A stretch of 21,592 bases of DNA, from positions 1 to 21,592 of the IMG/VR virus record IMGVR_UViG_3300008110_001399; one strand, given 5' to 3'. Each line of letters starts with the position of its first letter. The stretch's first letter is position 1. Below, piece by piece: positions 1,919 through 18,800 of this stretch. Source of the DNA: a virus. The position numbers and the translations under genes are program-made. Under the pieces are notes generated by a model that saw only the letters and a list, made by a program, of their open reading frames with translations, had not been told where the DNA came from and ran no database searches.

Positions 1919-3358
1919 ATGGCAGGTTCAATATTAGCGACCCCTACCTTCGCCCTTCAGCCGAGTGCTGAACGTGTGGCGTTGTCTACTAACTATGTTA
2001 CCAACTTCAACTTCTTGAACCAGTATCTTCCTGATACTTACGAGAAAGAATTTGAGCGTTACGGTAATCGTACTATCGCATCTTTCCTACGTATGGTAGG
2101 AGCAGAGATGCCTTCTAACTCAGACCAAATCAAATGGGCTGAACAAGGTCGTTTGCACCTGAAGTTTACTAACGTGACTTCTGCTGCTGCTGCCGGTTCT
2201 AACACTGCTGTTTTGACTATCTCTGATACTGGCGTTACCAGCGTACCAGTTCGTGTTGGTCAAACCGTCTTCATTCAGCGTAACTCAACTGGTGAAAGTA
2301 ACAAGGCTATTGTAACTGCGGTATCTGCTACCCCTTTCACTGCTCCTTACACTTTCACTGTGGCTTACTATGAGTCAGGTGGACAGACATTCGCTGCATC
2401 TCAGCCTTGTACTGTATTCATCTATGGTTCTGAATTTAAAAAAGGAACTAACGGGATGGTTGGTTCTTTGGAAGCAGAAGATGATATCTTCTCCAACAAC
2501 CCCATCATCTTGAAAGACACTTATGAAGTGAACGGTTCAGATATGGCATTCATTGGATGGATTGAAGTAACCACTGAGAACGGTGCTACCGGTTACTTGT
2601 GGTACTTGAAGTCTGAGCACGAGACTCGTTTGCGTTTTGAAGATTACTTAGAGACCGCAATGATTGAAGCAGTTCCTGCTATCGCTGGTTCTGGTGCAGC
2701 TACCGCTGGTTTCATCGGTTCTAACGGTATCTTCTACACTGTTCAACAGCGTGGTAATATCTGGGGTGGTGGTACTCCATCTACCTTGGTTGACTTTGAT
2801 GCAATCGTTGCTCGCTTAGACAAGCAAGGTGCTATCGAAGAGAACGTAATCTTCGTTAATCGTGACTTCAGTTTCGATATTGATGATATGTTAGCCAGCT
2901 TGAATGGTTACGTGTCAGGGGGTTCTTCTAACTCAGCTTCTTTCGGTTTGTTTGATAACGATACTGAAATGGCTTTGAATCTTGGCTTCACCGGTTTCCG
3001 TAGAGGTTATGATTTCTATAAGTCTGATTGGAAGTACTTGAATGACCCAACTATGCGTGGTGGTTTGGCAACAAACACAACAGCTGGTTTGACTGGTACT
3101 ATTTCTGGTCTTCTTGTTCCTGCTGGTTCTACTAACGTGTATGACCAAATCATGGGTAAGAATGCCAAGCGTCCTTTCTTACACGTGCGTTACCGTGCGT
3201 CTGAGACTGAGGACCGCAGATACAAGACTTGGATTACCGGTTCTGCTGGAGGTGCACAAACAAGTGACCTTGACGCAATGACCGTTAACTTCTTGTCTGA
3301 GCGTTGCGTTTGTACCTTGGGTGCTAATAACTTTGTATTGTTCCGTTACGGTGCATAA
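1919..3358 (+). CDS. Major capsid protein (HK97-fold type)
   Basis: 479 residues. It builds the icosahedral shell. The N-terminal arm leads to the segment NYVTNFNFLNQYLPDTYEKE, then a core, then a beta-rich stretch around residues 83-170 that could be an inserted surface domain. The stretch GYLWYLKSEHETRLRFEDYL (~residues 221-240) and a C-terminal half with many Gly and aromatic residues are typical of the crAss-like coat family as I remember it. Length fits that family (about 490 residues). Codon use stands out: Arg is nearly always CGT and Gly mostly GGT, whereas neighbours often use AGA/AGG. This fits very high expression. The ATG follows an A-rich leader (ctaaacaaaATG). A hairpin terminator follows the stop codon. 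Confidence 0.85.
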   Translation: MAGSILATPTFALQPSAERVALSTNYVTNFNFLNQYLPDTYEKEFERYGNRTIASFLRMVGAEMPSNSDQIKWAEQGRLHLKFTNVTSAAAAGSNTAVLTISDTGVTSVPVRVGQTVFIQRNSTGESNKAIVTAVSATPFTAPYTFTVAYYESGGQTFAASQPCTVFIYGSEFKKGTNGMVGSLEAEDDIFSNNPIILKDTYEVNGSDMAFIGWIEVTTENGATGYLWYLKSEHETRLRFEDYLETAMIEAVPAIAGSGAATAGFIGSNGIFYTVQQRGNIWGGGTPSTLVDFDAIVARLDKQGAIEENVIFVNRDFSFDIDDMLASLNGYVSGGSSNSASFGLFDNDTEMALNLGFTGFRRGYDFYKSDWKYLNDPTMRGGLATNTTAGLTGTISGLLVPAGSTNVYDQIMGKNAKRPFLHVRYRASETEDRRYKTWITGSAGGAQTSDLDAMTVNFLSERCVCTLGANNFVLFRYGA

Positions 3359-3374
3359 TTAAAGTTAATCAAAC

Positions 3375-3414
3375 GGAGGGGAGTGTACTCAAGTACACTC
3401 TTCTCCTTTGTTTT
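3375..3414 (+). terminator. Terminator-like hairpin after the capsid gene
   Basis: The left arm 3375-3388 pairs with the right arm 3393-3406 over 14 positions (two G:U pairs) around a TCAA loop, followed by TTTGTTTT. The upper stem is the 16-base palindrome that recurs twice more in the window. It probably ends or attenuates transcription after the highly expressed capsid gene. Since the next gene begins 20 bases later with no visible promoter, partial read-through or RNA processing is more likely than a complete stop. Confidence 0.7.
3383..3398 (-). repeat. 16-base palindrome, copy 1 (inverted)
   Basis: GTGTACTCAAGTACAC is the exact reverse complement of the two copies at 11797 and 18766. 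It forms the top of the post-capsid terminator stem. The arms GTGTACT/AGTACAC are a perfect inverted repeat about a two-base centre. Confidence 0.9.
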
Positions 3415-3433
3415 AAGAATTAAATCATATCAA

Positions 3434-4183
3434 ATGAAAAACAAAAAGTCAATACAATTAGTAGATAAGACCTACAAGTTAAAGAATGGGATGAGCCCAT
3501 TGTCTTACACAATCCCTTCAAGAAATACTAGAAGATATCCTTTGATGCATTTTGATGAAGAGACCGGATTAAACCGTGCATTGCGTTATGCACGAAATCA
3601 AAAGTCACCATTTGAAGATGAGCAGGATGGTAATTTCATACTAGAGCCTGTGGTATTTGAAGATGGTATGTTGATTGTACCAAAAGAAAACCAAGTGTTG
3701 CAACAATTCCTTTATTACCATCCCTTGAATGGTAGATTGTTTGAAGAGGTTGACAACGAGAAAGATGCTGAGTTAGAGATGGAAGAAATCAACTACGAGG
3801 TTGATGCCCTTATCGAAGCACGCTCAATGCCATTTGAACAAATGGAGATGGTATTTAGAGTGTTGTTCGGTAGAGACCCATCCAAGTATAGCTCGGCAGA
3901 GATTAAGCGTGATGTATTGCTTTACGCTAAGAATCAACCAAAGAGTTTCTTGGATTCAATCAACGACCCTATGTTGAAGCTTGAAGCAAACGTACACAGA
4001 TTCTTTGCTGCTAACTTGCTGATATTTAAGAACGGAACAAAAGAAGTGTGGTTCAACACCACATCTAACAAGAAGAAGATGATGAATGTTCCTTTCGATT
4101 CAGACCCATATACTAGCGTTGCTGTCTATTTGCAGAGCGATGAAGGCATTGACGCTTTGAAGCTACTAGAAACCAGTATATAA
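3434..4183 (+). CDS. Conserved phage structural protein, function unassigned
   Basis: 249 residues from ATG 3434. An upstream in-frame GTG at 3383 would put the start inside the terminator hairpin and is rejected; 3434 has the usual A-rich context (tatcaaATG). The protein reads as a basic N-terminus (KNKKSIQLVDKTYKLKNGM), then SPLSYTIPSRNTRRYPL and LRYARNQKSPFEDEQDGN, an acidic helix (~115-130), and a C-terminal part with KLEANVHRFF and DPYTSVAVYLQSDEGIDALK. I recall similar proteins beside the coat gene in uncultured aquatic phages but know no assigned role. It sits between two terminators, so its level may be set apart from the capsid and tail genes. It could be a head completion, head decoration or neck protein. 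No enzymatic motif is seen. Confidence 0.6.
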   Translation: MKNKKSIQLVDKTYKLKNGMSPLSYTIPSRNTRRYPLMHFDEETGLNRALRYARNQKSPFEDEQDGNFILEPVVFEDGMLIVPKENQVLQQFLYYHPLNGRLFEEVDNEKDAELEMEEINYEVDALIEARSMPFEQMEMVFRVLFGRDPSKYSSAEIKRDVLLYAKNQPKSFLDSINDPMLKLEANVHRFFAANLLIFKNGTKEVWFNTTSNKKKMMNVPFDSDPYTSVAVYLQSDEGIDALKLLETSI

Positions 4184-4215
4184 GTTTTCCATATTTATGT
4201 TTAAGGTTAAAAGAG

Positions 4216-4242
4216 GAGGGTGCAATCACCCTCTTTTTTTTT
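4216..4242 (+). terminator. Intrinsic terminator
   Basis: Seven-base-pair perfect stem GAGGGTG/CACCCTC with a CAAT loop, followed by nine T residues. This is the cleanest intrinsic terminator in the window. It separates the head genes from the neck/tail genes, and a -7-like box lies just after it. Confidence 0.88.
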
Positions 4243-4245
4243 ATT

Positions 4246-4253
4246 TATCTTTG
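4246..4253 (+). promoter_or_regulatory. TATCTTTG, candidate -7 box
   Basis: Perfect TAnnTTTG match directly downstream of the terminator and 14 bases before the ATG at 4268. The position after a terminator and before a new gene run makes this the most convincing promoter candidate here. No -33 TTTG is seen at normal spacing. Confidence 0.45.
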
Positions 4254-4267
4254 TATAAAAAGGCACG

Positions 4268-5221
4268 ATGATTAATGAAGTAAGAAACACCGTATTGTCA
4301 ATCTTGAATAAGAATAACTACGGGTATATATCTCCTTCTGATTTTAATTTATTTGCAGCTCAAGCTCAAATGGAAATGTTTGAAGAAGCTTTTTCTGCAT
4401 ATAATAAACTTTCTGTTGGACAGAATATGAAACAGATGTATGAAGGATATGGAGATATCCTTCAAACTTATGAGGAGCTATTGGAAATATTTAACGTGAC
4501 TAAGCCATTAAGCAATTACTTGGGTAATGTTTATTATTCACCATCACTGATTACTACTGGGGACAGCTCATATTTAATTTCAAGAGTTATATGTTATCCA
4601 ACGCAATATGCATTTGGGAGCAACACTACTGTTGTATCAGGGCAGTTGGTTGATGCCGCTGCTTCTTTCAATACACTTGGTATTGTAGCTGGAGATGTTG
4701 TTGTAAATTCAACTACTAATCAAATAGCACAAGTAATACAGGTTGTTAGCTCTACTGTTATAAATATCAATAATGATATATTTACAATTCCCGGAGAGGG
4801 GTTTGCTATATATAAAGCAAGCAGTGCTGTTGAAGCTGAAAAAATCACTCAAGATAAATTAGTACTTTTAAACACATCATTGCTAACTGCATCATCTGTA
4901 TTGTTCCCAACATACTCTTTGCAAGGTGACAAGATAACTGTGATGCCACCATCATATAGATTGATTGGTCAAGTTGTAATGAATTATTTCAGATATCCTC
5001 TTGCTCCGAAATGGACATACATAAATCTATTAGGAGGTGAGCCTGTATTTGACCAGACTCAACCAGACTATCAAGATTTTGAATTGCCAATTGATTATGA
5101 ATACAAATTGGTTACAAAAATTCTTGAGTATGCAGGTATGTCTATCAGAGAAACAGAAGTTGCTCAATTTGGTATGGCACAACAAGCACACGAAGAACCT
5201 ACACTTAGTGTACAACAATAA
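4268..5221 (+). CDS. Probable neck/ring structural protein
   Basis: 317 residues. The N-terminus (MINEVRNTVLSILNKNNYGY, then ISPSDFNLFAAQAQMEMFEE) is a helical signature I recall from a structural protein widespread in Bacteroidota podoviruses, crAss-like phages included. The middle (~100-190) is a beta-rich domain (VVSGQLVDAA, GIVAGDVVVNSTTNQIAQVI), a small barrel-like insertion. The C-terminal part contains FRYPLAPKWTYI and DYEYKLVTKILEYAGMSIRE. Its position before the connector and muzzle genes suggests a ring protein stacked under the portal. The exact ring cannot be assigned. The stop lies 5 bases before the next start, so the two genes are probably co-translated. Confidence 0.6.
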   Translation: MINEVRNTVLSILNKNNYGYISPSDFNLFAAQAQMEMFEEAFSAYNKLSVGQNMKQMYEGYGDILQTYEELLEIFNVTKPLSNYLGNVYYSPSLITTGDSSYLISRVICYPTQYAFGSNTTVVSGQLVDAAASFNTLGIVAGDVVVNSTTNQIAQVIQVVSSTVININNDIFTIPGEGFAIYKASSAVEAEKITQDKLVLLNTSLLTASSVLFPTYSLQGDKITVMPPSYRLIGQVVMNYFRYPLAPKWTYINLLGGEPVFDQTQPDYQDFELPIDYEYKLVTKILEYAGMSIRETEVAQFGMAQQAHEEPTLSVQQ

Positions 5222-5226
5222 AAATT

Positions 5227-6150
5227 ATGGCATATATATCCCAATATCAATACTATACCAACAACGGTACAACCCCAGAAGATGCTAACTGGGGTTCGTA
5301 CCAATATGTTAGTTTGGCTGATATAGTTAAAAACTTTCAGCTAATGTACACAGGAGATTTATCATTGATTAGTAATGAAGCACGATACAAAATACTTTTC
5401 CACGCAAAACGTGCGATACAAGAATTAAACTATGATGCATTCAAAGAAATCAAGGTCCTAGAACTTACAGTGGCTGACAATTTAATATTTGTGTTGCCAT
5501 CAGATTATGTGAACTGGGTTCGCATATCATTGTATAAGGACGGGTATCTAAGACCAATGACTGAAAACATCCAAACCCTTTCATCTAATGCATACTTGCA
5601 GGATAATGATGGGTTTATATTGTTTGATATGAATGGGAATATCCTTGAACCTCAGAACTCAACTATAGATTACGATAGATTAAAAGGTTCAAAGAAAAAC
5701 ATTTACTTGAATCCCGGTCATATGTTTGACGGACAGGAAGGGTGGTACATAGATGGGATGTGGTATTTTGATTATTGGTTTGGGGAAAGGTTCGGATTGA
5801 ATACTGAAACTGCTAACATCAACCCAACATTCAACGTAGACAAGAAGAGAGGTGTTATAAACTTCAATAGTGATATGCGTGGTCAGTTATGCATACTTGA
5901 GTACGTATCTGATGGAATGGAAAACGGTGACGAGTCTGCTATATCAGTTAACAAATTGTTTGAGCAATATGTGTATGCGTGTATCAAGTATGAGATGTTA
6001 GCATCCAAGCTGAATGTGCAAGAGTACATTGTTGCTCGTGCAAGAAAAGAAAAGCAAGCATTGTTAAGGAACGCTAAAATTAGAATAAGTAATATACATC
6101 CCGGTAGATTGTTGATGAGTCTGCGTGGTAATGATAAATGGTTAAAGTAA
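5227..6150 (+). CDS. Probable head-tail connector/ring protein (gp4/gp11-like role)
   Basis: 307 residues. The N-terminal part has a helical region with HAKRAIQELNYDAFKEIKVL, then LTVADNLIFVLPSDYVNWVR and ISLYKDGYLRPM, a pattern shared by podovirus neck proteins that join portal to tail tube. The middle is rich in Tyr/Trp/Gly (GWYIDGMWYFDYWFG). The C-terminal region has ILEYVSDGMENGDESAISVN, then helices LFEQYVYACIKYEMLASKLN and a basic end. The stop at 6150 is 1 base before the next ATG. The connector function is inferred from resemblance and location; I could not check a fold match. Confidence 0.62.
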   Translation: MAYISQYQYYTNNGTTPEDANWGSYQYVSLADIVKNFQLMYTGDLSLISNEARYKILFHAKRAIQELNYDAFKEIKVLELTVADNLIFVLPSDYVNWVRISLYKDGYLRPMTENIQTLSSNAYLQDNDGFILFDMNGNILEPQNSTIDYDRLKGSKKNIYLNPGHMFDGQEGWYIDGMWYFDYWFGERFGLNTETANINPTFNVDKKRGVINFNSDMRGQLCILEYVSDGMENGDESAISVNKLFEQYVYACIKYEMLASKLNVQEYIVARARKEKQALLRNAKIRISNIHPGRLLMSLRGNDKWLK

Positions 6151-6151
6151 T

Positions 6152-9100
6152 ATGCCAAAATTCACAAGAACATTTGTAGCTGGTAGAATGAATAAGGTAA
6201 CTGACGAGCGTCTTTTACCCGAAGGAGAATACATTGACGCAATGAACGTGCGTATGGGGTCTACCGAATTATCCGAGATTGGAGTAATTGAAAACACTAA
6301 AGGGAATGAGCAGCTTACTAGCCTTACCTATATTGACGGCACATCCTTGAGTAACCTTGCTAAATGTATAGGGGCATATGAGGATGGAGAAGCTAATACT
6401 TTATATTGGTTTGTTCACGACCCAGACTTTCCAGTGGGAGCTACTGGGAAACTAGACTTGATAGTTTCATTTAATGTAATAACTGGTATATTGACTTATC
6501 ACGTTGTCAGCATTGACGATGGAGGTGGCGTAAATACTACATTGAATTTCAATGAAAGTTATCTAATCACAGGGATTAGCCTAATTAAAACCGGTACTCT
6601 AAATGAGAACTTATTGTTCTTTACAGATGATTTGAATCCACCTAGGTTCATTAACCCAACAAGATTGTACTCTATACCAACATTAAATATTGATAGTCCA
6701 ATATTGGCAGAGCAATTGTTGGTTATAAAAAAACCACCTATTCAATCTCCAAGCATTACTCCCATAAGATTAAATGGTCAAGAGAATTTTATGGAGACTA
6801 GATTCTTATGCTTTGCATATAGATATAGATATGCTGATAACGAGTACTCTGCAATATCTCAGTTTAGTGCTCCTGCATTTATCCCTAATCCATTTGACTT
6901 TAGTATCAATAGCTTCCTAAACGAAGGTATGGTCAATGAGGCGAATGGAGTTAATATCACATTTAACACTGGTGGACCTTTAGTAAGAGGTATTGATTTA
7001 TTGTTTAAGGAGGCTGATTCAAATGTTATCAAAGTAATTGAGAAGCTTGATAAACAAAAGCAAGGATATGTGGATAATGCAAACTACACGTTCTTATTCA
7101 GTAACAGTAAGATATTTACAGTTCTTCCTGATTCAGAGATATTAAGATTATACGACAACGTACCACTACAAGCTAAGGCTCAGACAATAATGGGTAATAG
7201 GTTGATGTATGCTAATTACATTGAAGGATATGATTTAGTAGATAGCAATGGTAGTGATGTACAATTTTTATACGAAACTAGCCTTACTAGTGAATCTGTT
7301 GGAGACACACAAATACCTGACTCAACTATAAGCAGTGTATATACTATTGATGGGTCACAAACAATAGGTGACTCAGCTTTCCAAATTGATTTGACGGGGC
7401 TGTCACTGGTATCTGGAGCAGCTATTAGTATTGATATCACATATACACATAGTACTTTTACTAGTTCTACCCCTGCACAACAAACCACAAACGTATCAAT
7501 ATCATTTACATTCTTTTTGCCAAGAGATTATACATCTGTATATGACTTGGCTACAAGCACTGAATTTCAAGATGCAATAGGAACTGTTACAAACATCCAG
7601 CTAATGCCTACCGCTTGTAATGGTATAACATTTACTGATACATTCAACTGTTCTGTCCCAAGTTCTTTAGATGCATTCTTAAAGTACGGGAGTGGGATAT
7701 CTGCTATTAATCAACCAATAACAATTTTAACAAGTACATCAAGTAGTGTTATTGGATTTCAATTGCCAGCAGTAGAATTTGTAGACAACTTGACAACGCC
7801 TACTGTATTTGCTTATGAGTATTACGAAGTGACATTCGTAGAGGCTACGTATCAAGAGATAGCAAGTCCTACAAGTCTTCATAGTAACCGTGGCTATGAG
7901 ATTGGTATTGTTTACATGGACGAATTTAATCGTTCATCAACTGCACTTGTTAGTAAATTCAATACTGTGTTTGTACCTTGTGGCAATGCAAAGGATAGGA
8001 ATACAGTTCAGGTAACAATACCACCTCAACAAAAACCGCCTTACTGGGCTACGAGATATAAGTTTGTAATTAAACCTGATGCTGCTTCATACGAAACAGT
8101 TTACAGTTCTATATTCTTCCAAGACCCAAATACTAACAATGCGTACTTTCTAATTGAAGGAGAAAACGCTAGAAAGGTAGACGCTGGGACAAGGCTGATA
8201 GTTAAAAGAGATAGCGATGGAGCTACCGAAAATTGCGTATATGCTACAGTATTGGAAAAGGAGGCGAAGGCAGAAAACTTTATTACAATTCCAAGCTCTA
8301 AATATCCCGGTGTAGATATTCCTGTTCCAGCTGGAGTTTATATGAAGATTAACCCAACTAGCTTCAATGCAATTACGGATGAGGATGCTATTGTAAGTGC
8401 AGGGACATTTACCGTAAACCAAGATGATGGAGGGGAATACCCATTGCTTAGGTATCCTATGAACGTGCAGAACCCTAGTACTGGTAACTGGGAAGACTAT
8501 ACAGTACCGGCTGGTAGTAGGATTAAGATTAAGTTTGAATTCAAACGTATTGGCAAAGGTGATGGTAACGGGGCTTGCGAAAAAAGAAACTATACTGTAG
8601 ATACAACTCTTATTGCGTCATCCAATTACGACAATATGATGGATTGGTGGAATGGAGATAATGTTGGTCTTGTTGTTGAAAATGGTTTTGGATTTGCAGG
8701 AGGAGGTCAATGTACACCAGTTGGTGAATATATTGATACAATGGCATCTACCTCAAGTGATATACCTACAGCTTTATGTACCAACTATTTTAGATGGTAC
8801 AGAAACCCAAGCACACAGGAGCTTGTATTGCTTATGACTGGGACTGAGGCTTGTACTTGGATTGGCAAGAAAGAAAACAAAAGGTCATCAATCACAGCGA
8901 CTGTTGATGTGTTTCGTGCAGAGACATTGATGGTATTTGAAACCGAACCATTGGATGCCAACCCAGATATATTCTTTGAGAACAACTTATCACTGCCCAT
9001 TACAAATGGATTCCACGAAGGGAACATACAAGACCAAACTACAACAGTACCTGCAATTATTGATACTGAGTTTTTCAACTGTTTTTCTTTTGGTAATGGT

Positions 9101-9619
9101 GTTGAGAGTTATAAAATAAGAGACTCAATTATAACAAAAACTTTTAACTTTGGTAATCGTGTTACATCTGTATCTAATACTGCATATAAACGTGTAGATA
9201 GATTTGCCGATATTACATATAGTGGGGTTTACTTTGATGAGTCCAACGTAAATAGATTAAACGAATTCAATTTAGGTACACTTAATTTTAAACAATGCGA
9301 AGATTCTTTTGGTCCAATTCAATTATTAGATGGTCGTGAAACAGATGTCCTTGTTCTTCAAGAAGATAAAATATCTTATGTGCTTGCCGGGAAGAACCTT
9401 CTATCTGATGCTGGTGTTGGAAGCTCTCTCACTTCTGTGCCTGAAGTTTTGGGCACACAGATAGCACGTGTTGAAAAATATGGTATCAGCAATAACCCTG
9501 AAAGTTATGTTAACTGGGGATACGATAGATACTTTACTGATGTAAAGAGAGGTGCTGTAATTCAATTGAAAGGAGTTCAACAGACACTCAAAAGCTTGGG
9601 GCTTATGACCCATATATGA
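6152..9619 (+). CDS. Tail stabilization/muzzle protein, N-terminal part
   Basis: 1155 residues. The N-terminus is diagnostic: FVAGRMNKVTDERLLPEGEY, then IDAMNVRMGSTELSEIGVIE and NTKGNEQL. This is the start of the large stabilization protein (muzzle of crAss-like phages; role comparable to T7 gp12 or P22 gp10), which closes the tail tube. The body is beta-rich, with an insertion around residues 390-560. The C-terminal 130 residues carry the beta-propeller ending KISYVLAGKNLLSDAG ... GYDRYFTDVKRGAVIQLKG. The family normally continues beyond this, but here the frame ends 15 residues later (QTLKSLGLMTHI). In the -1 frame from GGGG 9598-9601 the text reads SLGAYDPYMNEYVLST, the expected family continuation. 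The gene is therefore probably the first part of a longer protein. Confidence 0.75.
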   Translation: MPKFTRTFVAGRMNKVTDERLLPEGEYIDAMNVRMGSTELSEIGVIENTKGNEQLTSLTYIDGTSLSNLAKCIGAYEDGEANTLYWFVHDPDFPVGATGKLDLIVSFNVITGILTYHVVSIDDGGGVNTTLNFNESYLITGISLIKTGTLNENLLFFTDDLNPPRFINPTRLYSIPTLNIDSPILAEQLLVIKKPPIQSPSITPIRLNGQENFMETRFLCFAYRYRYADNEYSAISQFSAPAFIPNPFDFSINSFLNEGMVNEANGVNITFNTGGPLVRGIDLLFKEADSNVIKVIEKLDKQKQGYVDNANYTFLFSNSKIFTVLPDSEILRLYDNVPLQAKAQTIMGNRLMYANYIEGYDLVDSNGSDVQFLYETSLTSESVGDTQIPDSTISSVYTIDGSQTIGDSAFQIDLTGLSLVSGAAISIDITYTHSTFTSSTPAQQTTNVSISFTFFLPRDYTSVYDLATSTEFQDAIGTVTNIQLMPTACNGITFTDTFNCSVPSSLDAFLKYGSGISAINQPITILTSTSSSVIGFQLPAVEFVDNLTTPTVFAYEYYEVTFVEATYQEIASPTSLHSNRGYEIGIVYMDEFNRSSTALVSKFNTVFVPCGNAKDRNTVQVTIPPQQKPPYWATRYKFVIKPDAASYETVYSSIFFQDPNTNNAYFLIEGENARKVDAGTRLIVKRDSDGATENCVYATVLEKEAKAENFITIPSSKYPGVDIPVPAGVYMKINPTSFNAITDEDAIVSAGTFTVNQDDGGEYPLLRYPMNVQNPSTGNWEDYTVPAGSRIKIKFEFKRIGKGDGNGACEKRNYTVDTTLIASSNYDNMMDWWNGDNVGLVVENGFGFAGGGQCTPVGEYIDTMASTSSDIPTALCTNYFRWYRNPSTQELVLLMTGTEACTWIGKKENKRSSITATVDVFRAETLMVFETEPLDANPDIFFENNLSLPITNGFHEGNIQDQTTTVPAIIDTEFFNCFSFGNGVESYKIRDSIITKTFNFGNRVTSVSNTAYKRVDRFADITYSGVYFDESNVNRLNEFNLGTLNFKQCEDSFGPIQLLDGRETDVLVLQEDKISYVLAGKNLLSDAGVGSSLTSVPEVLGTQIARVEKYGISNNPESYVNWGYDRYFTDVKRGAVIQLKGVQQTLKSLGLMTHI

Positions 9620-11256
9620 ATGAGTATGTACTTAGCACTAACGAAGAGGAACTTCCTCAACCAGTCCAGTGTTTATCTTGTGGGGTATCTCAGACTTTTA
9701 ACCTGAATACTACATCAACTAGTTACTGCGTAAATCTTGGAGTATTCATTGGTGATGTAGATATTGAATACACTGTATTATCAATAGCCCCATCAGCTAC
9801 GTTTACAATTAATTCCACATACAACTCAGTAATATATACCACTGGTCCTGTGAGTACTAGCGGTACATTGACTTTTAACAAGTCACTTAATACTATTAAT
9901 CAGGCAGGTATTGTAATATCTTCTACAGGGAATGTTGTATTGTCTGTAAACGTAGGATGCCCTAATCAGATTATGTTGGGATTGATAGAAATTGTTTTGA
10001 CAAATAATGCAGATGCAGGTAAAACAATTCACACTCAATACAATTACATTAATGGGGCTTATACATCACCTATCCAAACAAATTTTATTACGTTTGCGTC
10101 TGGGACTAATAACCCACTATCTAGCTTCTACAATAGAACAGATGGGGCACAGGGTTTTGGCTCTATCCCATTGAGTGGAAGTGATGTATATATGTACACT
10201 AATAAGATACCACCTGATACTTTTGATTTCGATATATTGAATTCACAATTCAAGTATCTTACAACAAACACATTATATACCAACTCCCCCGGTGACTTGA
10301 GTACGTTGTTGTCTTTGGCATCTGCTGCTACCCCAATTACTCAGTTAGGTAATGTATTCCAAGCTTCATTTACAGCCCCAACTTTACAAGACTACTTGTA
10401 TCTTGTTTGGGACTTAACAGCTTCTCAGCAAGTTCAATTGTGTTATTCTAACGTGAGCGTTGCAGCGGTTTGTTGTGCGTGTACTAGTAGCGGTACATAT
10501 TATATCAATGCCCCATCACTGGCATCTGCTAATGCAGTTTTCAGCGATTCAGCTATGACAACTTGTGCCCCCGATGGGTTCTATAGTGATGGTGTTATTG
10601 TTAGAGAACAATCTGTTTGTACATTATTACCACAACAGACTTGTCCATCTTGTGCACAGCCTTGCCCAGTACCAACAGTAAGTGGTAGCGGTCAGCATTA
10701 CTATATACTAGATGTTGATTTGACTTCTTCTACCGGAGCTGTTATTGTTCACTTCAATCCAAACAATGGACCTTGCGGATTGATGGCTACTTACAATGGA
10801 ATAAACTATACATCCGTAAGTTCATCGGTGTTTGGATACTTGGCATCAGGAGCTACTAACCAGCCTGTTTATCTTGGTCAATCTTCTTTTGATTGTGGTA
10901 TTTTAACTGGAAGCCCATATACTAATGTTCCTATATTCTATTGGGATGGCGGTACAGGATTTACTCCAAGTGCATCATTTGCATCATTCTCTGTTGTTGC
11001 TGCTCAAAAGCAATTAACAACTGCAAGTCCTTCTGATTGTTATATGGTTATCCCCAAGACATCAGCAACTCCAAGTCAGTTGAGAATAATTATACCTTTA
11101 CCTTGTCCTTTGATTGGAGCGTTTGATATTGATGTATTATGCCCAGCTCCATTGACATCATTCTCAAGTTCCTCAATGCGTTCAAACTCTAACTTGGCTT
11201 GTGCTTCTTCGATTAACCAAACATATTATTTCCACCACGTAACGGGGGGTTCTTGA
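9616..11256 (+). CDS. Muzzle continuation with inserted Cys-rich receptor-binding-like region
   Basis: 546 residues if started at ATG 9616, which overlaps the upstream stop by four bases. Codons just before that ATG read GAYDPY, completing the tail motif AYDPYMNEYVLS, so the frame probably enters from the upstream gene. After ~20 residues it changes character. About 19 Cys are spread through Ser/Thr/Gly-rich beta segments. One repeat runs TYYINAP..VFSD..GFYSDG (10495-10599). Another domain runs SGSGQHYYILDVDLTSSTGA ... NGPCGLMATYNGINY ... CYMVIPKTSATPSQ. Such modules are common in tail fibres and adhesin-like proteins of Bacteroidota phages, so host binding is a fair inference. The end (TYYFHHVTGGS, stop at 11254-11256) follows a G6 run; the next frame continues the same repeat. 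Confidence 0.65.
   Translation: MNEYVLSTNEEELPQPVQCLSCGVSQTFNLNTTSTSYCVNLGVFIGDVDIEYTVLSIAPSATFTINSTYNSVIYTTGPVSTSGTLTFNKSLNTINQAGIVISSTGNVVLSVNVGCPNQIMLGLIEIVLTNNADAGKTIHTQYNYINGAYTSPIQTNFITFASGTNNPLSSFYNRTDGAQGFGSIPLSGSDVYMYTNKIPPDTFDFDILNSQFKYLTTNTLYTNSPGDLSTLLSLASAATPITQLGNVFQASFTAPTLQDYLYLVWDLTASQQVQLCYSNVSVAAVCCACTSSGTYYINAPSLASANAVFSDSAMTTCAPDGFYSDGVIVREQSVCTLLPQQTCPSCAQPCPVPTVSGSGQHYYILDVDLTSSTGAVIVHFNPNNGPCGLMATYNGINYTSVSSSVFGYLASGATNQPVYLGQSSFDCGILTGSPYTNVPIFYWDGGTGFTPSASFASFSVVAAQKQLTTASPSDCYMVIPKTSATPSQLRIIIPLPCPLIGAFDIDVLCPAPLTSFSSSSMRSNSNLACASSINQTYYFHHVTGGS
10495..10599 (+). repeat. Protein repeat unit A (TYY..VFSD..GFY)
   Basis: Encodes TYY, 11 residues, VFSD, 7 residues, then DGFYSDG. 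A second, diverged unit with the same landmarks spans the junction between two frames at 11221-11317. The repeat is therefore useful for deciding that the two frames were one protein. Confidence 0.55.
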
Positions 11257-11317
11257 TTTATATGATATGGTATTCTCTGATGCTAATGGTCAATTCCCAT
11301 TGGCTAATGGATTCTAT
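11221..11317 (+). repeat. Protein repeat unit B, broken across two frames
   Basis: TYYFHHVTG is encoded in the 9616 frame. VLDLYDMVFSDANGQFPLAN followed by GFY is encoded in the 11267 frame, extended upstream of its ATG. Removing one G from the run of six at 11244-11249 joins them into TYY, 13 residues, VFSD ... GFY, closely matching unit A. Confidence 0.55.
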
Positions 11318-11797
11318 CAAGCACCAACATCTCTTCCTGTGGGGAATCAATGGTTTAAAGTAGAGAATGGAATAATAACATTGTACGGACCTTGTGCTTA
11401 TGGAGCTAATTATATACTTGAGTATTGTCACGATGGTACACAAATTATTGCAGACTATCCCTCACTCCCTGCCCCCGGTCTTGCAATAGGAACATTTGTA
11501 ACTATCGCAGCACTGTCTCCTTGTGCATTCACTGTAATAGCATACACTAGTTCTACTGCAACGCAAACAATATCTAGTGCCCCTCCGGGGTTGAATTGTG
11601 GTGACGTGTGTGCGGAGTATGATGGGACAAATACCACTGGAGGTATAGTTACAGTTAACTATACAGACTGCCCCGGTATTGCACAATCAGTATCGTTGAA
11701 TCCCGGTGACGGATTCCAACAATGTTGCAGGATTGGTTCTATATCAACTGTTCCACCTAATGTGATTACATTTATACCACAAGCTTGTTGTCCATAG
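11267..11797 (+). CDS. Cys-rich muzzle insert, final part
   Basis: 176 residues from ATG 11267, 10 of them Cys. The frame is open upstream through GVLDLYD to the G6 run at 11244-11249, so this ATG may be an internal Met of a single protein. The content is beta-strand-like: GQFPLANGFYQAP, NQWFKVENGIITLYG, then CAEYDGTN ... VNYTDCPGIAQSVSLNPGDG and a CC..CC ending. The YTDC-G pattern with paired cysteines is one I recall from C-terminal domains of Bacteroidota phage fibre proteins. The likely role is part of the tail-tip receptor-binding region. It ends in TAG 11795-11797, whose last base is the first base of the second 16-base palindrome; the next gene starts 31 bases later. Confidence 0.6.
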   Translation: MVFSDANGQFPLANGFYQAPTSLPVGNQWFKVENGIITLYGPCAYGANYILEYCHDGTQIIADYPSLPAPGLAIGTFVTIAALSPCAFTVIAYTSSTATQTISSAPPGLNCGDVCAEYDGTNTTGGIVTVNYTDCPGIAQSVSLNPGDGFQQCCRIGSISTVPPNVITFIPQACCP

Positions 11798-11812
11798 TGT
11801 ACTTGAGTACAC
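11797..11812 (+). repeat. 16-base palindrome, copy 2
   Basis: GTGTACTTGAGTACAC, identical to the copy at 18766 and the exact inverse of the copy at 3383. It fills the short gap between the Cys-rich insert and the conserved muzzle C-terminal part, starting on the last base of the stop codon. It can form a six-pair hairpin with a TTGA loop but has no T-run after it, so it is not a standard terminator. Confidence 0.9.
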
Positions 11813-11828
11813 CATTATAAAAAAATAC

Positions 11829-12635
11829 ATGGCAAATTATACATTAACATATAGTCAAGGAGTAGATGGATGGGTGTCCTTCTACTCCTATTATCCTGAT
11901 TGGATGATAGGGATGAACAATTATTTCTACACGTTTAAAGGTGGTAATCTGTTCAGGCATAACACTAACAACCAAAGAAACACGTTCTATGGAGCGTTTG
12001 AAGATACGCAGATAACTAGCGTGTTCAATACAATGCCACTAGAGAATAAGTTGTTCAAGACTCTAAACATTGAGGGAGATGCTGCTTGGGACGCTCAAGT
12101 AGAAACAGATTTACAAACTGGTGGATTTGCCGATACTACTTATTTTGAGAAGAAGGAACAATCTTACTTCTCATTCATAAGAAACTCAGGCACTACCCCT
12201 GCTTCTCCATCAGAGTATCCATTGAGGTCATTGAATGGTATTGGGAAAACTACAAGTATTAACTCAGCCGCACCAGCTGCGGTTCAAGTAAACTATTCTA
12301 TATCTCCATTGGTATCTATTGGTAATATAATATCTATAGGTGATTATTTGTACTATTCATTGCCACCATCCTTTGATACCCCAATATTATTTGGAGAGGT
12401 TACTGATATTATAGTTAACTTAAAGGGTGGTATTAATAGATTGATTGTTGATTCTACTATACCAAGTGGTAGTATCCCACCAATACAAGACCCTTATAGT
12501 TTATATATTAAGAACTCAGTTGCTGAATCTCACGGAGTACTTGGGCACTATTGTAAGTTTACATTAAGGAACGACACTTCAAATAAGATTGAACTCTTTG
12601 CCCTTGAAACCGAAGTGATGAAGAGCTATCCATAA
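11829..12635 (+). CDS. Muzzle/tail protein, conserved C-terminal part
   Basis: 268 residues. The beginning (TLTYSQGVDGWVSFYSYYPD, then WMIGMNNYFYTFKGGNLFRH and NTNNQRNTFYG) and the end (CKFTLRNDTSNKIELFALET, then EVMKSYP) are landmarks that in related phages I recall at the C-terminus of the large stabilization/tail protein, after the YDPYxNEYVLS motif. Here they form a separate frame with its own ATG in an A-rich context (aaaaaaatacATG). The upstream frame is open but reads SVLEYTIIKKY across the palindrome, which does not look homologous, so a true start at 11829 is likely. The product probably assembles with the upstream pieces in the tail tip. Possible histories are gene fission after domain insertion, or a degraded fusion. 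Confidence 0.68.
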   Translation: MANYTLTYSQGVDGWVSFYSYYPDWMIGMNNYFYTFKGGNLFRHNTNNQRNTFYGAFEDTQITSVFNTMPLENKLFKTLNIEGDAAWDAQVETDLQTGGFADTTYFEKKEQSYFSFIRNSGTTPASPSEYPLRSLNGIGKTTSINSAAPAAVQVNYSISPLVSIGNIISIGDYLYYSLPPSFDTPILFGEVTDIIVNLKGGINRLIVDSTIPSGSIPPIQDPYSLYIKNSVAESHGVLGHYCKFTLRNDTSNKIELFALETEVMKSYP

Positions 12636-12642
12636 AAAATTA

Positions 12643-12650
12643 TATCTTTG
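12643..12650 (+). promoter_or_regulatory. TATCTTTG, candidate -7 box
   Basis: Perfect TAnnTTTG match, identical to the box at 4246, located 8 bases before the ATG at 12659. A transcript started from it would have almost no leader. Confidence 0.38.
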
Positions 12651-12658
12651 TGTATATT

Positions 12659-13072
12659 ATGGATTTGTCTATTCGTGTATTAACCCAAGAAGATTATTCC
12701 AACATACTTGTGGGGTGGTGGAATGATTGGAAATGGACAGCACCTGATAAAGATTTTCTACCATCTGATGGAGAGGGAGGGATGATTGTCTATGATGGCG
12801 ACATCCCTATTTGTGCTGGGTTTATATACCTTACAAATTCAAAAGTATTTTGGCTTGATTGGATTATTTCAAATAAGCAATACGTTCATAAACAAAATAG
12901 GAATGATGCATTGTTGTACCTAATAGATACGCTATCAAGCGTTGCTATAAACAACGGTGGTAAATATATCTATGCGTTGATAAAGAACCCAAGTTTAATA
13001 AGAAAGTACGAACAGCTTGGGTTTGTAAAAGGAGATTCGTACACAAGTGAAATGATTAAAACAATAAACTAA
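12659..13072 (+). CDS. GNAT-like N-acetyltransferase
   Basis: 137 residues from ATG 12659. A GTG at 12650 would add three residues but overlaps the -7-like box, so 12659 is preferred. The order fits a compact GNAT fold: an early strand LSIRVLTQEDYSNI, then WWNDWKWTAPDKDFLP, GGMIVYDGDIPICAGFIYLT, NSKVFWLDWIISNK, a helix NDALLYLIDTLSSVAINNGG and a final RKYEQLGFVKGD. The last element resembles the GNAT motif in which a Tyr near the cofactor precedes a 'LGF' strand. The classic R/QxxGxG/A loop for acetyl-CoA is weak: the expected region reads NKQYVHKQNRNDA, so activity is not assured. The gene lies between tail and internal virion genes; its substrate is unknown. Confidence 0.65.
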   Translation: MDLSIRVLTQEDYSNILVGWWNDWKWTAPDKDFLPSDGEGGMIVYDGDIPICAGFIYLTNSKVFWLDWIISNKQYVHKQNRNDALLYLIDTLSSVAINNGGKYIYALIKNPSLIRKYEQLGFVKGDSYTSEMIKTIN

Positions 13073-13073
13073 T

Positions 13074-13988
13074 ATGGCAGCATTTACAAGTATAGCAGCT
13101 GGTGTTGGAATAGCAGCGACAGCAGGTGGTGTCGGAATGAACTTTGCTGACGCAGCAAAGCAAAAAGATATGCGACTTAAAGCTGAAGAAGATTCAGCAA
13201 AGATGATGGATGAAGCTAGACGAAAAATGAGCGTTAACCCATTTGCCGCAATATCATTACCTACTGAAGCTTATAAATTAGAGAGTGAAGCTATGCTACA
13301 ACAAGGAGCACAATTGACTGAGGCTGGTAGAGAGAGCGAGCGTGGAGCAGCAGCAACAGCAGGTCGTGTTCAGATGGCACAACAGCAAGGGCAACAACAG
13401 ATTAGAGCTGAGATGGGCAAGGACCTAACCAACTTAGAGATGGCTAAGGCAAGAGAAGAAGGGAACATTAGAAATAAGATGGTTGAAATAGACTTGGCTG
13501 AAGCAGAAGGGGCACAACTAGCAGCTGCCGATGCTGCAAAGGCTCAAGCTAAATTAAAGCAAGCAGCAGCACAAGGCGTTGCTAGCATAGCAGGTCAAGC
13601 AGCAGCATTTGCACCGTTGTTTGAAAAGACCGAAGCGGCTAGACAGTTTGATAAATTCCAAAAGGATTACGATAAGATGTCAGTGAAGGGCAATTTACCG
13701 GAAGAGTTTATAGGGATGAGTGGGAAACCATTATCAGCTGCCGAAGCTTACGCTAAAGCAACCGGAATGACTCCAGACCAAATTAAAAATATAGGTGGTC
13801 AAACTGTTACTAGAATTGGGGAGGATGAAAGCCCTTATCAAGCATTTGAATTGAACCCATTCCAAGTGAAAGGACAGAAAGATTTGAATGCTAGTTCTAT
13901 AAGACAAATAAGAAAGAATTTAAGAACAGGAACAGGATTCGATGAAGTTCCTATCTATGACCTTGGATATGATTTCCTTAATCAATAA
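13074..13988 (+). CDS. Probable internal virion/ejection protein
   Basis: 304 residues, beginning 1 base after the preceding stop. The N-terminus (AAFTSIAAGVGIAATAGGVG) is a Gly/Ala hydrophobic segment that could insert in a membrane. A long Ala/Gln/Glu/Lys-rich helical region follows (~25-180: RGAAATAGRVQMAQQQGQQQ, KAQAKLKQAAAQGVASIAGQ), then a less regular C-terminal part with PYQAFELNPFQVKG. Small podovirus ejection proteins (roles like T7 gp14 or P22 gp7) have this design: a hydrophobic N-terminus plus helices, used to form a channel across the host envelope. Location next to the large internal proteins agrees. The call is inferred from architecture and gene order. Confidence 0.6.
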   Translation: MAAFTSIAAGVGIAATAGGVGMNFADAAKQKDMRLKAEEDSAKMMDEARRKMSVNPFAAISLPTEAYKLESEAMLQQGAQLTEAGRESERGAAATAGRVQMAQQQGQQQIRAEMGKDLTNLEMAKAREEGNIRNKMVEIDLAEAEGAQLAAADAAKAQAKLKQAAAQGVASIAGQAAAFAPLFEKTEAARQFDKFQKDYDKMSVKGNLPEEFIGMSGKPLSAAEAYAKATGMTPDQIKNIGGQTVTRIGEDESPYQAFELNPFQVKGQKDLNASSIRQIRKNLRTGTGFDEVPIYDLGYDFLNQ

Positions 13989-13999
13989 TAAAAGTTACT

Positions 14000-15829
14000 A
14001 TGCCTAGTTACTATAAATATGCCGAGCGACAAGCTGCTAGTGTAATAGACTGGAATAAGATAAGCAGCTCTCTAGTAGAAACATTACAAGAAGAGGATAA
14101 GAGAAGAGAAAAACTTAAATCTGAGATTGATAAAAATAGTTTTGAGTTTGGTCAGGATTTAAACAATGCTCCTCAAGGGGATTATACGAATGCCAACACG
14201 TGGATACTTAATGCTGCGGACCAAGGTCAACAAGCTAGGTTGATGCAAGATAACTTATTGAAGAGTGGTCAGTTAAAGCTGAAAGACTATATGGTAATGA
14301 GAAGAAACCTTGAAGGTGACTTCAAAAATATGTTCGCTGTATCCAAAGAATATCAAGAGGAATACAAGAGCAAGATGGAAAGATATAGGACTAACCAGTC
14401 TTCAACATCTGAGTTAGAGTTAATGGAGACTATCGAATCATTGGCTAACTTTACAAAGACATCTCCGTATATTAATCCGACTAGTGGCGTAATAAGCTTA
14501 TCCAAACAAGAACTAAAGGATGGTGTATATAAACCAACGGGTGACTATGTATCTATTCAGGCATTACGTAACAGGCTTAAAATAAATATAGATAAGTTTA
14601 ATGAAGATAATTTAAGTTCTGATGTAAAGACATTAGGCGAGACCACTATTAGTAATATACGTAGGATAGATGGTCTTAGAAGAATTATTGCTGTAGAGAA
14701 AACAAAAGACCCAACACTCCGTAAAGCATTGCAAGATGACCCAGAGATTGGTACTTACCTAGATTGGGAGGATGCTAAGGTTGGAGAATACTTGGCTAAC
14801 CCATATACATCATTATCTATATTGACTGACTATGTTGGCAAAAACGAAAAAGGAGAAAAGTTCAAGCTAACTTTTAATGAGGAGGAGTTTAATAACGACA
14901 AGACCGGGAGGTTGTACTTGATGAAAGATGATGGGAGTGGTGTACTAAAACCAACTTTCAAGAAAGAACAAGAGGAAATGATTTCTAAAGAAATCAAGAA
15001 CAAATATCGTAATATGATTGACAGAGAAGCTACTATTGATGTGGCAACAGAACCTGATATATATAGACCAAGTGTTGGAGAGATGGAGTATTACTCAGGG
15101 AAGAAAGAAGAAAAAGAGAAGATGAGAGAGAAGCTTAATATGTTGGGTCAATTGTATTATGGCGATAACAATCAGGTTAAGGCAGCATCTACATATTTCC
15201 GTGATTTAGTACCAAGTGTACAAGGAATAAAAAGAGGAGAGACTGGTATTGTAATTACTTTTGATGATGGCAAAAAGAGAACATTGCCATTCAAAGACGC
15301 TAATGGGAATGTAATGTCTCAGGCTGATTTTATAAAGAGTGCAGTAGCATTACACGGAACTTCTAATATCAATCAAGCTCTGAGAGAATCTGGATATGAT
15401 GCAAGTAAATCGTTCAACCCATTCTCAAAAGGTGAAGCTGCTGTTATTGCAGCCCCTACAAAGACTGTAAAGAACTTGGACAAATTCGACAAAATACTTC
15501 AGACAAAAAATAATTCATACGCAGAATTTATTACAAGTTCAATGGACGATGAGCCAGAAGAAATTGCTTCAGCAATGGCATCAAGATTTGGTCCATTAGG
15601 ATTTACATTTACAGGAAGAACTGAAGGCTTGTCAGACGATAAGGTAGATATTAAGTACAATAATATTATAATAGGAACTGTAGATGCCGATAACGCTTCA
15701 GGTGCTGCTAGTGAGATTGATGCAATTATGAGAAACAAATTGCAAGAATCTGATACGGCAGCAGAAGCAGCAGCAAAAGCTAAAGAAAATGAACAGGAAG
15801 ATAATCTAATTGGTTCACTTGATGATTAA
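14000..15829 (+). CDS. Large internal virion (cargo) protein
   Basis: 609 residues. The N-terminus PSYYKYAERQAASVIDWNKI and the segment GQDLNNAPQGDYTNANTWIL ... ARLMQDNLLKSGQLKLKDYM match, from memory, a conserved virion protein of uncultured Bacteroidota-type podoviruses. The protein is mainly charged and helical, with a smaller mixed region near residues 400-440 (GIKRGETGIVITFDDGKKRT) and an acidic Ala/Glu-rich tail. It has no signal peptide, membrane segment or known catalytic motif. Its place between a probable ejection protein and the giant polyvalent protein suggests it is packaged and delivered with them. ATG 14000 lies 11 bases after the previous stop. The role is inferred. Confidence 0.58.
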   Translation: MPSYYKYAERQAASVIDWNKISSSLVETLQEEDKRREKLKSEIDKNSFEFGQDLNNAPQGDYTNANTWILNAADQGQQARLMQDNLLKSGQLKLKDYMVMRRNLEGDFKNMFAVSKEYQEEYKSKMERYRTNQSSTSELELMETIESLANFTKTSPYINPTSGVISLSKQELKDGVYKPTGDYVSIQALRNRLKINIDKFNEDNLSSDVKTLGETTISNIRRIDGLRRIIAVEKTKDPTLRKALQDDPEIGTYLDWEDAKVGEYLANPYTSLSILTDYVGKNEKGEKFKLTFNEEEFNNDKTGRLYLMKDDGSGVLKPTFKKEQEEMISKEIKNKYRNMIDREATIDVATEPDIYRPSVGEMEYYSGKKEEKEKMREKLNMLGQLYYGDNNQVKAASTYFRDLVPSVQGIKRGETGIVITFDDGKKRTLPFKDANGNVMSQADFIKSAVALHGTSNINQALRESGYDASKSFNPFSKGEAAVIAAPTKTVKNLDKFDKILQTKNNSYAEFITSSMDDEPEEIASAMASRFGPLGFTFTGRTEGLSDDKVDIKYNNIIIGTVDADNASGAASEIDAIMRNKLQESDTAAEAAAKAKENEQEDNLIGSLDD

Positions 15830-15851
15830 TACATATTAAAAAAATAAACTC

Positions 15852-15859
15852 TATTTTTG
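15852..15859 (+). promoter_or_regulatory. TATTTTTG, candidate -7 box
   Basis: TAnnTTTG match ending only 4 bases before the ATG at 15864. If used, transcription would begin at or inside the start codon, giving a leaderless message. A chance match in AT-rich DNA is quite possible. Confidence 0.3.
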
Positions 15860-15863
15860 TTCT

Positions 15864-18800
15864 ATGGATGAATTGAGCAAGCTATATCAAGCTTTAGTTG
15901 CTAAAGGATATTATACTAAATCTTTTGAAGAGTTTCAAACTAAATTCCAAGACCCTGTATATCAAGATAGAGTATTCAATGCGGTAAACGAAAGCCAATT
16001 ATTTACTCAAGGTAGAGATAGATTTTTCCAGAAGTTTACTGGTGGTGCTGCCCCTATGCTCCCACAGCAAGAAGAGCAAATTACTCCTATGGCACAAGCT
16101 GTAGGAGAACCCGTAAAAAAAAAAGAAGAACAACTACCTCCGTGGCTTCAGGAAGTGGAGAAAGCAAGAAGGGAAGAAGAAGCTTCACGTTTGCCTTTCT
16201 ACCAAAAACCAAAAGAGGAGTTGTCCCCATTTTTGGAATCTGCTGCTTCGGCATCTTCATCGGGATATCAAGGAATCCCTGACTTCTCAAAGCCAGCTGA
16301 GTTACCACCATTACTAACGCCAGAACAAATAGCTGCGTTACCTGAGCCTATTGCCCAAGAGGAAGAGGATTATTTTACAGGTACATTCGGCAATGTACTT
16401 AGAACATTTGATGAATACTCTCCCATTGGTGTAGGAGATTTTGTCGATGACTTTGCACGTTCAGTTGCTCAAGGTTATAGGTCAGCAAAGCTAGGCGAAG
16501 AGTCTTTGGCATTGCTCAAAGAAGGTACAGTACCAACTACAGAACAAATACAAAAATTCTTAGAGGCAAATAAGAACGCCAAGGGATTAGGTAGCTCCAA
16601 AGAGATGCAGGACTACCAGAAGATTTATGAAGAAGAGGGCAAAGGATTTTGGGGTGTAGTAAAAGGTCTTATATTGAACCCAACAGTAGCAGCAGAACTT
16701 ATCACTAGTTCTCTAGTATCAATGGCTACAAATACAGATGCAGTTATAGCAGGACTTTCTGCTGTAGGTGCAGGAGCTTCATATGGAGCTGCTACTGGGT
16801 CTGCTGCTGCTGGCGTAGGTGCTGTTCCGGGAGCTGTTGCAGGGGCTGCTGCTTCTCTTCCATACGCATTTGGTTTGGCTAGCTCTATTGTTGATATGGG
16901 TGCTACCTATGCTGAATTATTGCAAGAGGAACTAGGTGGCAAAGAAGCAACCAAAGAAAATGTAAAAGCTATACTAGAAGACCCCACAAAGCAGAACGAA
17001 CTAAGGAACAAAGCTATCGTAAGAGGTATTGCTATCGGTACTATAGATGCATTCACAGGTAAATTGGCATCAGGGGTCGGTACTAAAGTATTGTCCAAGT
17101 CTGCTGCTACATCAGCTACTGGAGCTGCAACGAGAGGTGCTGTTGTAAAGTCAGTGGCTACCGGTGCAGGGATTGAAGCGGTAGGTGGTGCTACTGGTGA
17201 GGCTACAGGTAGGGGGCTTATTGGGCAAGAGATGGATGTATCTGAGATTGCATTGGAAGGCTTGTCTGAACTCCCCGGTGGTGTTAAGTCTACCATCCAA
17301 GCAAGATATGCCAAGCCTGTATATAAAATAAATGGGCAGAAAGTAACGGCAGAAGAAGTTGATAATGTCATAGAAACCATGACTCCTGACCAACTTGCAA
17401 AGAGCAAGATTGTTATTGAGAATGATTACACTGGTCGTGCAAAAAAGATGCAAGACAAGATTGTTGATGGCTCAATAGAAAAGCAAGTTGTAGAAGCAAA
17501 CCCAGAGTTAAATAAAACTAGTGTCCGTGCTATTGTTGAATTAGAAAAGGAATTAAAAACCTTAGAAGGTAACACTACCCAAACTGGTAAAGATAAAGCT
17601 GCGTCAATAAGACAGCAGATTAAAGACATACAAGAAAATCCGCTTCAAGAAGAAGCAATTAAAGAAACAATTAAAGCAGAAGAAGATGCCATTCAAGAGC
17701 AAACAACAAGTGAAGTTCCTATTCAGCCAGAAGCCAGAGTTGGCGAAGAAGTGGCGAAAGGAGAACCCCAAGCAGAACCTCAAGTCACTGCCGAAGAAAC
17801 TGTCAAAGAAGAAGTAGGGAAACCAAAGTCATTCTTTGATTGGATTGGAGGGTTAAGCAAGAAAGAAGAAGTCACCGAAGAAGTAGCTACTCCTATTGAA
17901 ACTGTAACCAAAGAAGAAGTTGATGCGGTTATTACTCCTGAAGAACAAGAGGCACTTGACCAAGAAGTAAAAGACTTAGAGTCAGTGCTTGGTCTTGAGC
18001 CAACAGAGGAAGCCCCTAAGCTTAGTGAAGAGAAAAAGCAAGAGGTAGTTGAGAACATCAATAAGCTAAGGGAACTAGAGAAAGAAAAGAACAAGGACAA
18101 CCTTGACGAGCAATATGCTATAGGCAGTGAGCAAACAGTAGCTGAACGCATTGATGAGAAGTACGATAAGCAATTGGATTTATTTGAATCTATCGCTGCA
18201 CCTACTCCTCCACCTGCACCTACTCCTGTTGCTACTAAGATAGAAGAGATAGTTAGCAAAGAAGATAATGAGTTGAATAAAATCAATGAATCAATTGGGC
18301 GTGTAAAGGAAGAGATAGATTCGGATAAGAATGAGAGAGAACTAGAAGCTCTTGATGAGAAAATTTCTAGAGCCAAGAAGAGAATAGCTACAGCTGATGA
18401 TACGGATGCTGCTATTGAGGAATTCAAACAAGCTGAAAAGGGGAAGGCAGACTTCCAAAAATCCATACAAAAGAAAAAGGACTTCAATAAAGTAGACGCT
18501 CTTATTCTTGATGAGATATATCAAAAGAACAGAGGTAGATACGAATATCAAGAATTGTTTGACAAAGACCCACGCCTTGCTGCAATACAAAGTGCCAAGG
18601 ATATGATTGAATATGGGAGGGGAGATTTTCTTGATGAAGAAGGATTGGCTAGATATGAGAACTACATTAAAATTCTTGAAGAGGACATAGCTAAATTCCC
18701 GGTTAAAGAAGCAGTCGCTCCTGCCCCTGCACCTGCTAAAGCAAAGAAAGCATCTACCAAAAAAGGTGTACTTGAGTACACTCCACCTGCTCCTGCCCCT

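Follow-up and report, generated by a model that had tools for sequence, protein, structure and literature searches.

Lineage-specific palindromes in crassvirus-related phages of Bacteroidota as candidate operators of a phage-encoded regulator family

The repeated 16-mer and its surroundings

The window, by which we mean the whole stretch of DNA that was analysed (21,592 nucleotides of an IMG/VR virus record), contains a domain of the crassvirus muzzle protein (PF25729), a feature of Crassvirales-like phages. Its genes and other elements are listed in Table 1, and its capsid protein was used as the query for gathering relatives. The muzzle region of the window is split into ORFs 6152-9619, 9616-11256, 11267-11797 and 11829-12635; its counterpart is one 4.66-kb ORF in MW202828 and a 1903-aa ORF in G003. 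A second strong intrinsic terminator, with an apex unrelated to the 16-mer discussed below, lies at 4209-4240 (GAGGAGGGTGCAATCACCCTCTTTTTT), and an Rfam search of the window returned no matches.

Table 1. Features of the window and of related phage records
Record	Feature	Position	Strand	Remarks
Window	Major capsid/virion structural protein	1919..3358	+	phrog_13704; ends 24 nt before copy 1
Window	Terminator stem-loop, 14 bp	3375..3406	+	apex is copy 1; followed by TTTGTTTT; fold of 3360-3420, -25.2 kcal/mol
Window	Site copy 1	3383..3398	-	reads GTGTACTTGAGTACAC on the - strand, with a centre of TCAA on the strand of the genes; forms the apex of the intrinsic terminator behind the capsid gene
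Window	Site copy 2, intergenic	11797..11812	+	starts on the final stop-codon base of ORF 11267-11797; 16 nt before ATG 11829
Window	ORF with crAss muzzle C-terminal domain	11829..12635	+	PF25729 crAss_MUZ_C, E 6e-16; 16 nt past copy 2
Window	Giant late ORF, runs open to the end of the window	15864..21590	+	holds copy 3
Window	Site copy 3, within the giant late ORF	18766..18781	+	encodes VLEYT; Lys/Pro-rich linker KKGVLEYTPP; 233 aa before HDAFGH
L159	Type III hammerheads, early operons	13058-13112, 13367-13421, 14992-15046, 17122-17176		similar in G006, G015, G021
G005, G006, G015, G021 and others	Palindrome GTGTCTTYRAAGACAC
MW202828 (Podoviridae sp. ctfjg026)	Palindrome GTGTCGTTAACGACAC			14 copies
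G020	Palindrome GTACGGTTGACCGTAC
G018	Palindrome GTGGTTTYRAAACCAC
G001	Palindrome GTGTACTYRAGTACAC			11 exact copies
G022	Palindrome AGTCTC-N6-GAGACT
	Further palindrome types			GTCCGTTYAAACGGAC, TCCGTTATAACGGA, AGTCTGTTYGAACAGACT, AGTGCACTYGAGTGCACT, GTCTCTTYRAAGAGAC, TCCGCTTAAGCGGA, GGTTCAC-type

Three exact copies of GTGTACTYRAGTACAC are present in the window, and allowing up to three mismatches on both strands adds no further place, each copy being matched also on the opposite strand with two mismatches. Shuffling the window 100 times gave a mean of 0.21 matches, with not a single shuffle reaching six, and this is the only palindrome with two 7-nt arms and a 2-nt centre to recur there. The original prediction that the three copies exceed chance is borne out by these numbers, and its placement of copy 1 on top of the post-capsid terminator, of copy 2 ahead of the C-terminal part of the muzzle and of copy 3 in a linker ahead of the HDAFGH domain agrees with the map. 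The term "exact palindrome" used there has to be amended, as the form is GTGTACT-YR-AGTACAC, i.e. imperfect, with 7-bp inverted arms that flank a TG/CA centre which is not self-complementary. A search of the rest of the phage and of its relatives, proposed at the same time as a check, yielded further copies, both in a sibling contig described below and in G001 (Table 1).

The places of the late copies recur among the relatives. Copy 2 is retained with one change at position 512 of G003, G015 and G023 have a GTGTC-type site in their homolog of the giant ORF, likewise in the linker ahead of the domain that follows copy 3, and in G005, G006 and G012 a site lies within a long late ORF.

Another IMG/VR record, G002, has as its last 7403 bases exactly those with which the window begins, so both records derive from one phage. 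In G002 there are further copies of GTGTACTYRAGTACAC at 1830 and at 12382, the latter within the terminase gene, which brings the phage to at least five copies, spaced by 10.6, 7.1, 8.4 and 7.0 kb on the joined map. Many of the relatives gathered with the capsid protein have GTGTCTTYRAAGACAC as the apex of the post-capsid hairpin and, on the same contig, the same 16-mer ~7.07 kb upstream in the terminase gene. That two sites 7 kb apart change in concert points to a single trans-acting recogniser. The terminase reads CTQVH at this site in the window clade and CLQRH in the relatives with GTGTCTTYRAAGACAC, and nearly all phages without a palindrome have Arg as the fourth residue at this place (e.g. 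CYKRS, CFSRS). Val takes the place of this near-universal Arg in the window clade, so a conserved residue has been displaced there by the DNA site, and the palindrome overrides the conservation of the protein. A match with one mismatch in the terminase gene of G001 was excluded, since the common peptide VYSR yields GTGTACTCAAGA regardless.

Lineage-specific palindromes and the positions they occupy

Crassvirus-related phages of Bacteroidota carry 4-14 copies of their own lineage-specific palindrome per complete or near-complete genome, mostly of the same design (Table 1). Almost all centres are YR steps, and all four types of step occur; such centres would suit bending of the DNA. No recurrent palindrome was found in G008, G010, G013 and G014, in the Flavobacterium elemo phage or in the examined stretch of the Maribacter phage Panino. 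If a collection is very large, a 16-mer may turn up in it by chance, and many single-copy matches in IMG/VR look unrelated; those to GTGTACTYRAGTACAC in unrelated viral contigs were set aside as chance or as repeated coding families. Chance is, however, excluded as the origin of the present sites by their recurrence within genomes and by the co-variation of distant sites in each lineage, and the association of lineage-specific sequences with a phage gene (see below) argues against a single host factor, so we give practically no credence to an explanation by chance or by sites of a host regulator.

Most sites belong to the early operon, where they are intergenic and separate a stop codon from the start that follows: in the relatives 181 of 285 (64%) fall outside ORFs, compared to 13% expected. 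In gaps between co-directional genes the median distance of the site from the preceding stop is 14 nt, and the next ATG often follows after 15-30 nt. A few sites occupy conserved places in the late operon, some of them inside coding sequence, and promoter-like sequences are not enriched at the sites of the relatives. Long early-region ORFs (~537 aa) with an internal site were seen in G005 (8556-10172) and G023 (43149-44759), at the place taken by groEL in MW202828. Between co-directional genes the centre on the transcribed strand is CA or TG in a ratio of 115:16, compared to 6:5 between divergent genes; the orientation of the centre is thus coupled to transcription, and the idea that the CA/TG centre gives the site a direction holds for the relatives. 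In the window phage the centres are mixed in a small sample, with TCAA in the sense strand at copy 1 and at the terminase site, and TTGA at copies 2 and 3.

MatP/matS and ParB/parS are genome-organising systems with dispersed palindromes, including palindromes inside genes. A protein that organised or marked the phage genome in a similar way, or in the manner of nucleoid occlusion, without controlling transcription, would be in keeping with sites that are dispersed (~7-10.6 kb apart on the joined map of the window and G002), partly located in coding sequence and not associated with promoters. Nevertheless, we consider such a function quite unlikely, as the concentration of sites in early intergenic gaps and the dependence of their orientation on transcription set them apart from matS and parS, no ParA-type ATPase (PF13614) was found in 12 phage records, and the candidate protein described below has no structural match in the PDB. 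Recombination or module exchange, suggested as another role of the 16-mer, would agree with the proximity of all three window copies to gene or domain boundaries and with an orientation defined by the centre. It is very improbable in view of the relatives, where the sites hold conserved positions, many of them within coding sequence, on otherwise collinear genomes while their sequence shifts by lineage; besides, the 12 phage records contain no tyrosine-type integrase (PF00589), and no breakpoint was seen at a site on unsystematic inspection.

Symmetry of the sites, hairpins and hammerhead ribozymes

Variants of the early-operon sites with one mismatch are balanced over the two arms, with 17 T->C changes on the left and 17 A->G changes on the right. 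Only the right-arm change preserves a pair (G-U) in the transcript, whereas the C.A variants break the RNA stem; equal mismatches on both half-sites therefore indicate a DNA dyad rather than a G-U-tolerant RNA stem.

The same numbers bear on the alternative that the palindromes are primarily RNA elements, either 3'-terminal hairpins of mRNAs, as in terminators and hairpin-hammerhead units, or intercistronic elements of processing, stability or translation, to which the family protein could bind as RNA. Copy 1 is indeed the apex of a terminator, 22% of the relatives' sites have stems with three or more additional pairs, compared to 2% in the control, and 58 of the 291 sites precede a hammerhead core by 23-44 nt (mostly 25-30), all on the same side and with a biased centre (on the ribozyme strand CA 48, TA 8, CG 2, TG 0), although the ratio of 48:0 between CA and TG may partly reflect the copying of one unit. 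The sites with extended stems are either terminators or located just 5' of hammerhead ribozymes. On the other hand, 159 of the 291 sites have no additional stem pair at all, many sites lie within coding sequence, that of the terminase included, stem-breaking C.A mismatches are as common as G-U ones, many hammerheads are preceded by a different hairpin, and the terminators of relatives without the candidate gene have apices unrelated to the palindrome. We therefore regard a primary RNA function as unlikely. Of the original prediction of an RNA hairpin, a secondary use remains, at the ~22% of the relatives' sites that lie in extended stems, while the symmetry of recognition is of the DNA type.

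Three of the hammerheads next to sites were confirmed as Hammerhead_3 (type III, RF00008), below the Rfam cut-off. The matches to this covariance model score 34-45 bits (E 1e-4 to 8e-8), compared to a gathering score of 48.5, and the core CUGANGA..GAAAC is present. Those that follow other hairpins indicate that the ribozyme is independent of the palindrome sequence. Hammerheads of the early operons typically lie directly behind a hairpin, be it the palindrome or another stem, suggesting that mRNA 3' ends are made by ribozymes in these phages; the hairpin-plus-hammerhead units near the sites thus point to an unusual way of 3'-end formation.

A candidate regulator family and its possible mode of action

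Comparison of gene content singles out a protein of ~205 aa, whose gene lies centrally among the clustered sites of the early region and whose family has no convincing match in Pfam or PHROG. Each complete genome in which a palindrome recurs has a homolog of this gene, if a distant one, and the five complete genomes without such a palindrome all lack it. Counted by gene, a recurrent palindrome occurs in 11 of 11 gene-bearing records and in 0 of 5 complete gene-less ones (Fisher p = 2.3e-4, optimistic because the genomes are related), and in the capsid-selected sample alone in 7 of 7 with the gene and 0 of 4 without it (p = 0.003, optimistic because of kinship). In an independent set of loci, picked by an unrelated neighbouring gene (MarR-like), 15 have both gene and recurrent palindrome, 38 neither, nine the gene only and two the palindrome only (p = 8e-7, likewise optimistic); several of the nine end at the gene, and one of the two belongs to the window clade (G004), its contig ending before the expected place. 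Gene calls in the relatives were made mechanically. A search of IMG/VR by the family alone found more than 70 distinct gene loci, and exact or near GTGTCTTNNAAGACAC (GTGTCTT-type) sites exceed chance in all 71-73 distinct gene-bearing loci examined, often with one site ~200-280 bp upstream of the gene and one directly after it. Just upstream of the former site, a strongly pyrimidine-rich, repeat-like tract (CCTGCC/CGTCCC units) was noticed in L242, L214, L234, L240 and others.

The window phage itself presumably carries a regulator of this family just beyond the available sequence. G002 and G004, the contigs of its clade that extend into the early region, stop short of the expected place, and searches for the regulator of the clade by site variants, by the G001 protein and by the neighbouring gene found none, no contig extending far enough. 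A ~150-aa "repressor protein" (MW202828, also L199, 40229-40705; G002 2066-2521), which matches a transcription regulator in PHROG and is usually encoded ~3.5-4 kb from the new gene, was rejected as the determinant, its homologs being present in site-positive and site-negative relatives alike.

The AlphaFold model of the ~205-aa protein (pLDDT 86) contains a confident helical domain, in which helices 76-84 and 88-98 are at helix-turn-helix spacing; behind this domain come a linker and then a beta-hairpin with a helix. Modelled in isolation, the helical domain reaches a pLDDT of 94.5. Since no PDB structure was matched by these models at E<=0.001, the helix-turn-helix-like character of the middle part is one that we infer from the sequence pattern and the predicted helices. 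The fold search matched four unnamed viral proteins, and the family profile had no match among PDB chain sequences at E<=1. The putative recognition helix is kept across many GTGTCTT phages (GW/Y-QKS-Y/F-F-YK) and takes other forms in phages with other sites: NKSFFYD with GTCCGTT, KYSFFAD with TCCGTTA and SKAQGHKY with GTGTCGT. Such natural pairs of site and recognition helix constitute a ready data set for rules of DNA recognition.

We consider it probable, judging from sequence comparison, that the 16-mer is this lineage's version of a stoperator-like operator for a new family of phage regulators. The operator for a phage regulator in the original prediction is thereby supported and extended to a genome-wide, lineage-specific set of sites that accompanies one gene family. 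The protein, presumably a dimer, would bind the palindromes of its own lineage, spread over the genome, by reading usually 7-bp half-sites around the YR centre through the major groove, and would control its own operon. At each site, rather than at promoters, it would halt RNA polymerase that is already engaged in transcription, by roadblock or termination, and it probably switches phage genes off or down; this would fit a shut-off of early genes in the lytic cycle as well as a carrier state with silenced genes. Multi-copy lineage-specific sites, their co-occurrence with the gene, their positions and the DNA-type symmetry of mismatches come from comparison, and from these we infer binding and roadblock action.

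Lambda CI and P22 C2 are dimeric repressors with dyad-symmetric operators, a regulator gene amid the operators and specificity that varies between relatives. The candidate operators described here share the dyad symmetry, the location of the regulator gene among the sites and the variation of specificity, but they are scattered genome-wide over intergenic and coding sequence instead of being clustered at two promoters, and neither sequence nor fold searches relate the protein family to these repressors. Stoperators bound by immunity repressors are known from cluster A mycobacteriophages (L5, Bxb1, TipsytheTRex), where the orientation of the site matters (PMC6550527, PMC9283540). Similarities to the latter include many sites per genome, outside promoters, for one phage protein (its binding here being putative), a consensus that is particular to each lineage and diverges together with the regulator, orientation with transcription and the location of one site upstream of the gene for the regulator. 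However, cluster A sites are 13-bp, asymmetric and bound by a monomer, while those described here are dyad-symmetric palindromes of 14-18 bp, and our candidate has no detectable similarity to the L5-type repressor with its two DNA-binding domains; besides, the present system belongs to podovirus-like, crassvirus-related phages of Bacteroidota, in which neither integrase nor ParA was found. With its symmetric sites and unrelated protein, the system falls outside the cluster A stoperator family. In epsilon crAss-like phages, which belong to the same broad group, a regulatory switch has been proposed from repressor and anti-repressor genes found by homology (PMC11054128); that paper contains no operator or binding-site terms, whereas the present family lacks a convincing Pfam or PHROG match and has a mapped set of sites. 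In the accessible parts of the open-access literature on crAss-like phages, neither such sites nor this protein are described.

A genome-wide operator system offers a testable lead on how crassvirus-like phages persist without integration. It is conceivable, although we would not bet on it, that integrase-less crassvirus-related phages encode their own genome-wide silencing, with elongation locked at the palindromes, at least 12 specificities among the genomes seen, a non-integrated carrier state and heteroimmune superinfection immunity, the last of these and the roadblock being conjectural. If true, such silencing would help to explain the coexistence of phage and host without classical lysogeny. 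Gene family, sites and natural specificity variants together would amount to a concrete regulatory circuit for a large group of uncultivated Bacteroidota phages. No relatives of the regulator were found in 84,980 bacterial species genomes or in plasmids. On the bacterial side, relatives of the capsid protein occur only in contigs of MAGs (L366-L374), labelled Aliivibrio, Maricaulis and Bacteroidetes bacteria; several of these contigs are of whole-phage size (54-65 kb) and thus probably represent co-binned free phages.
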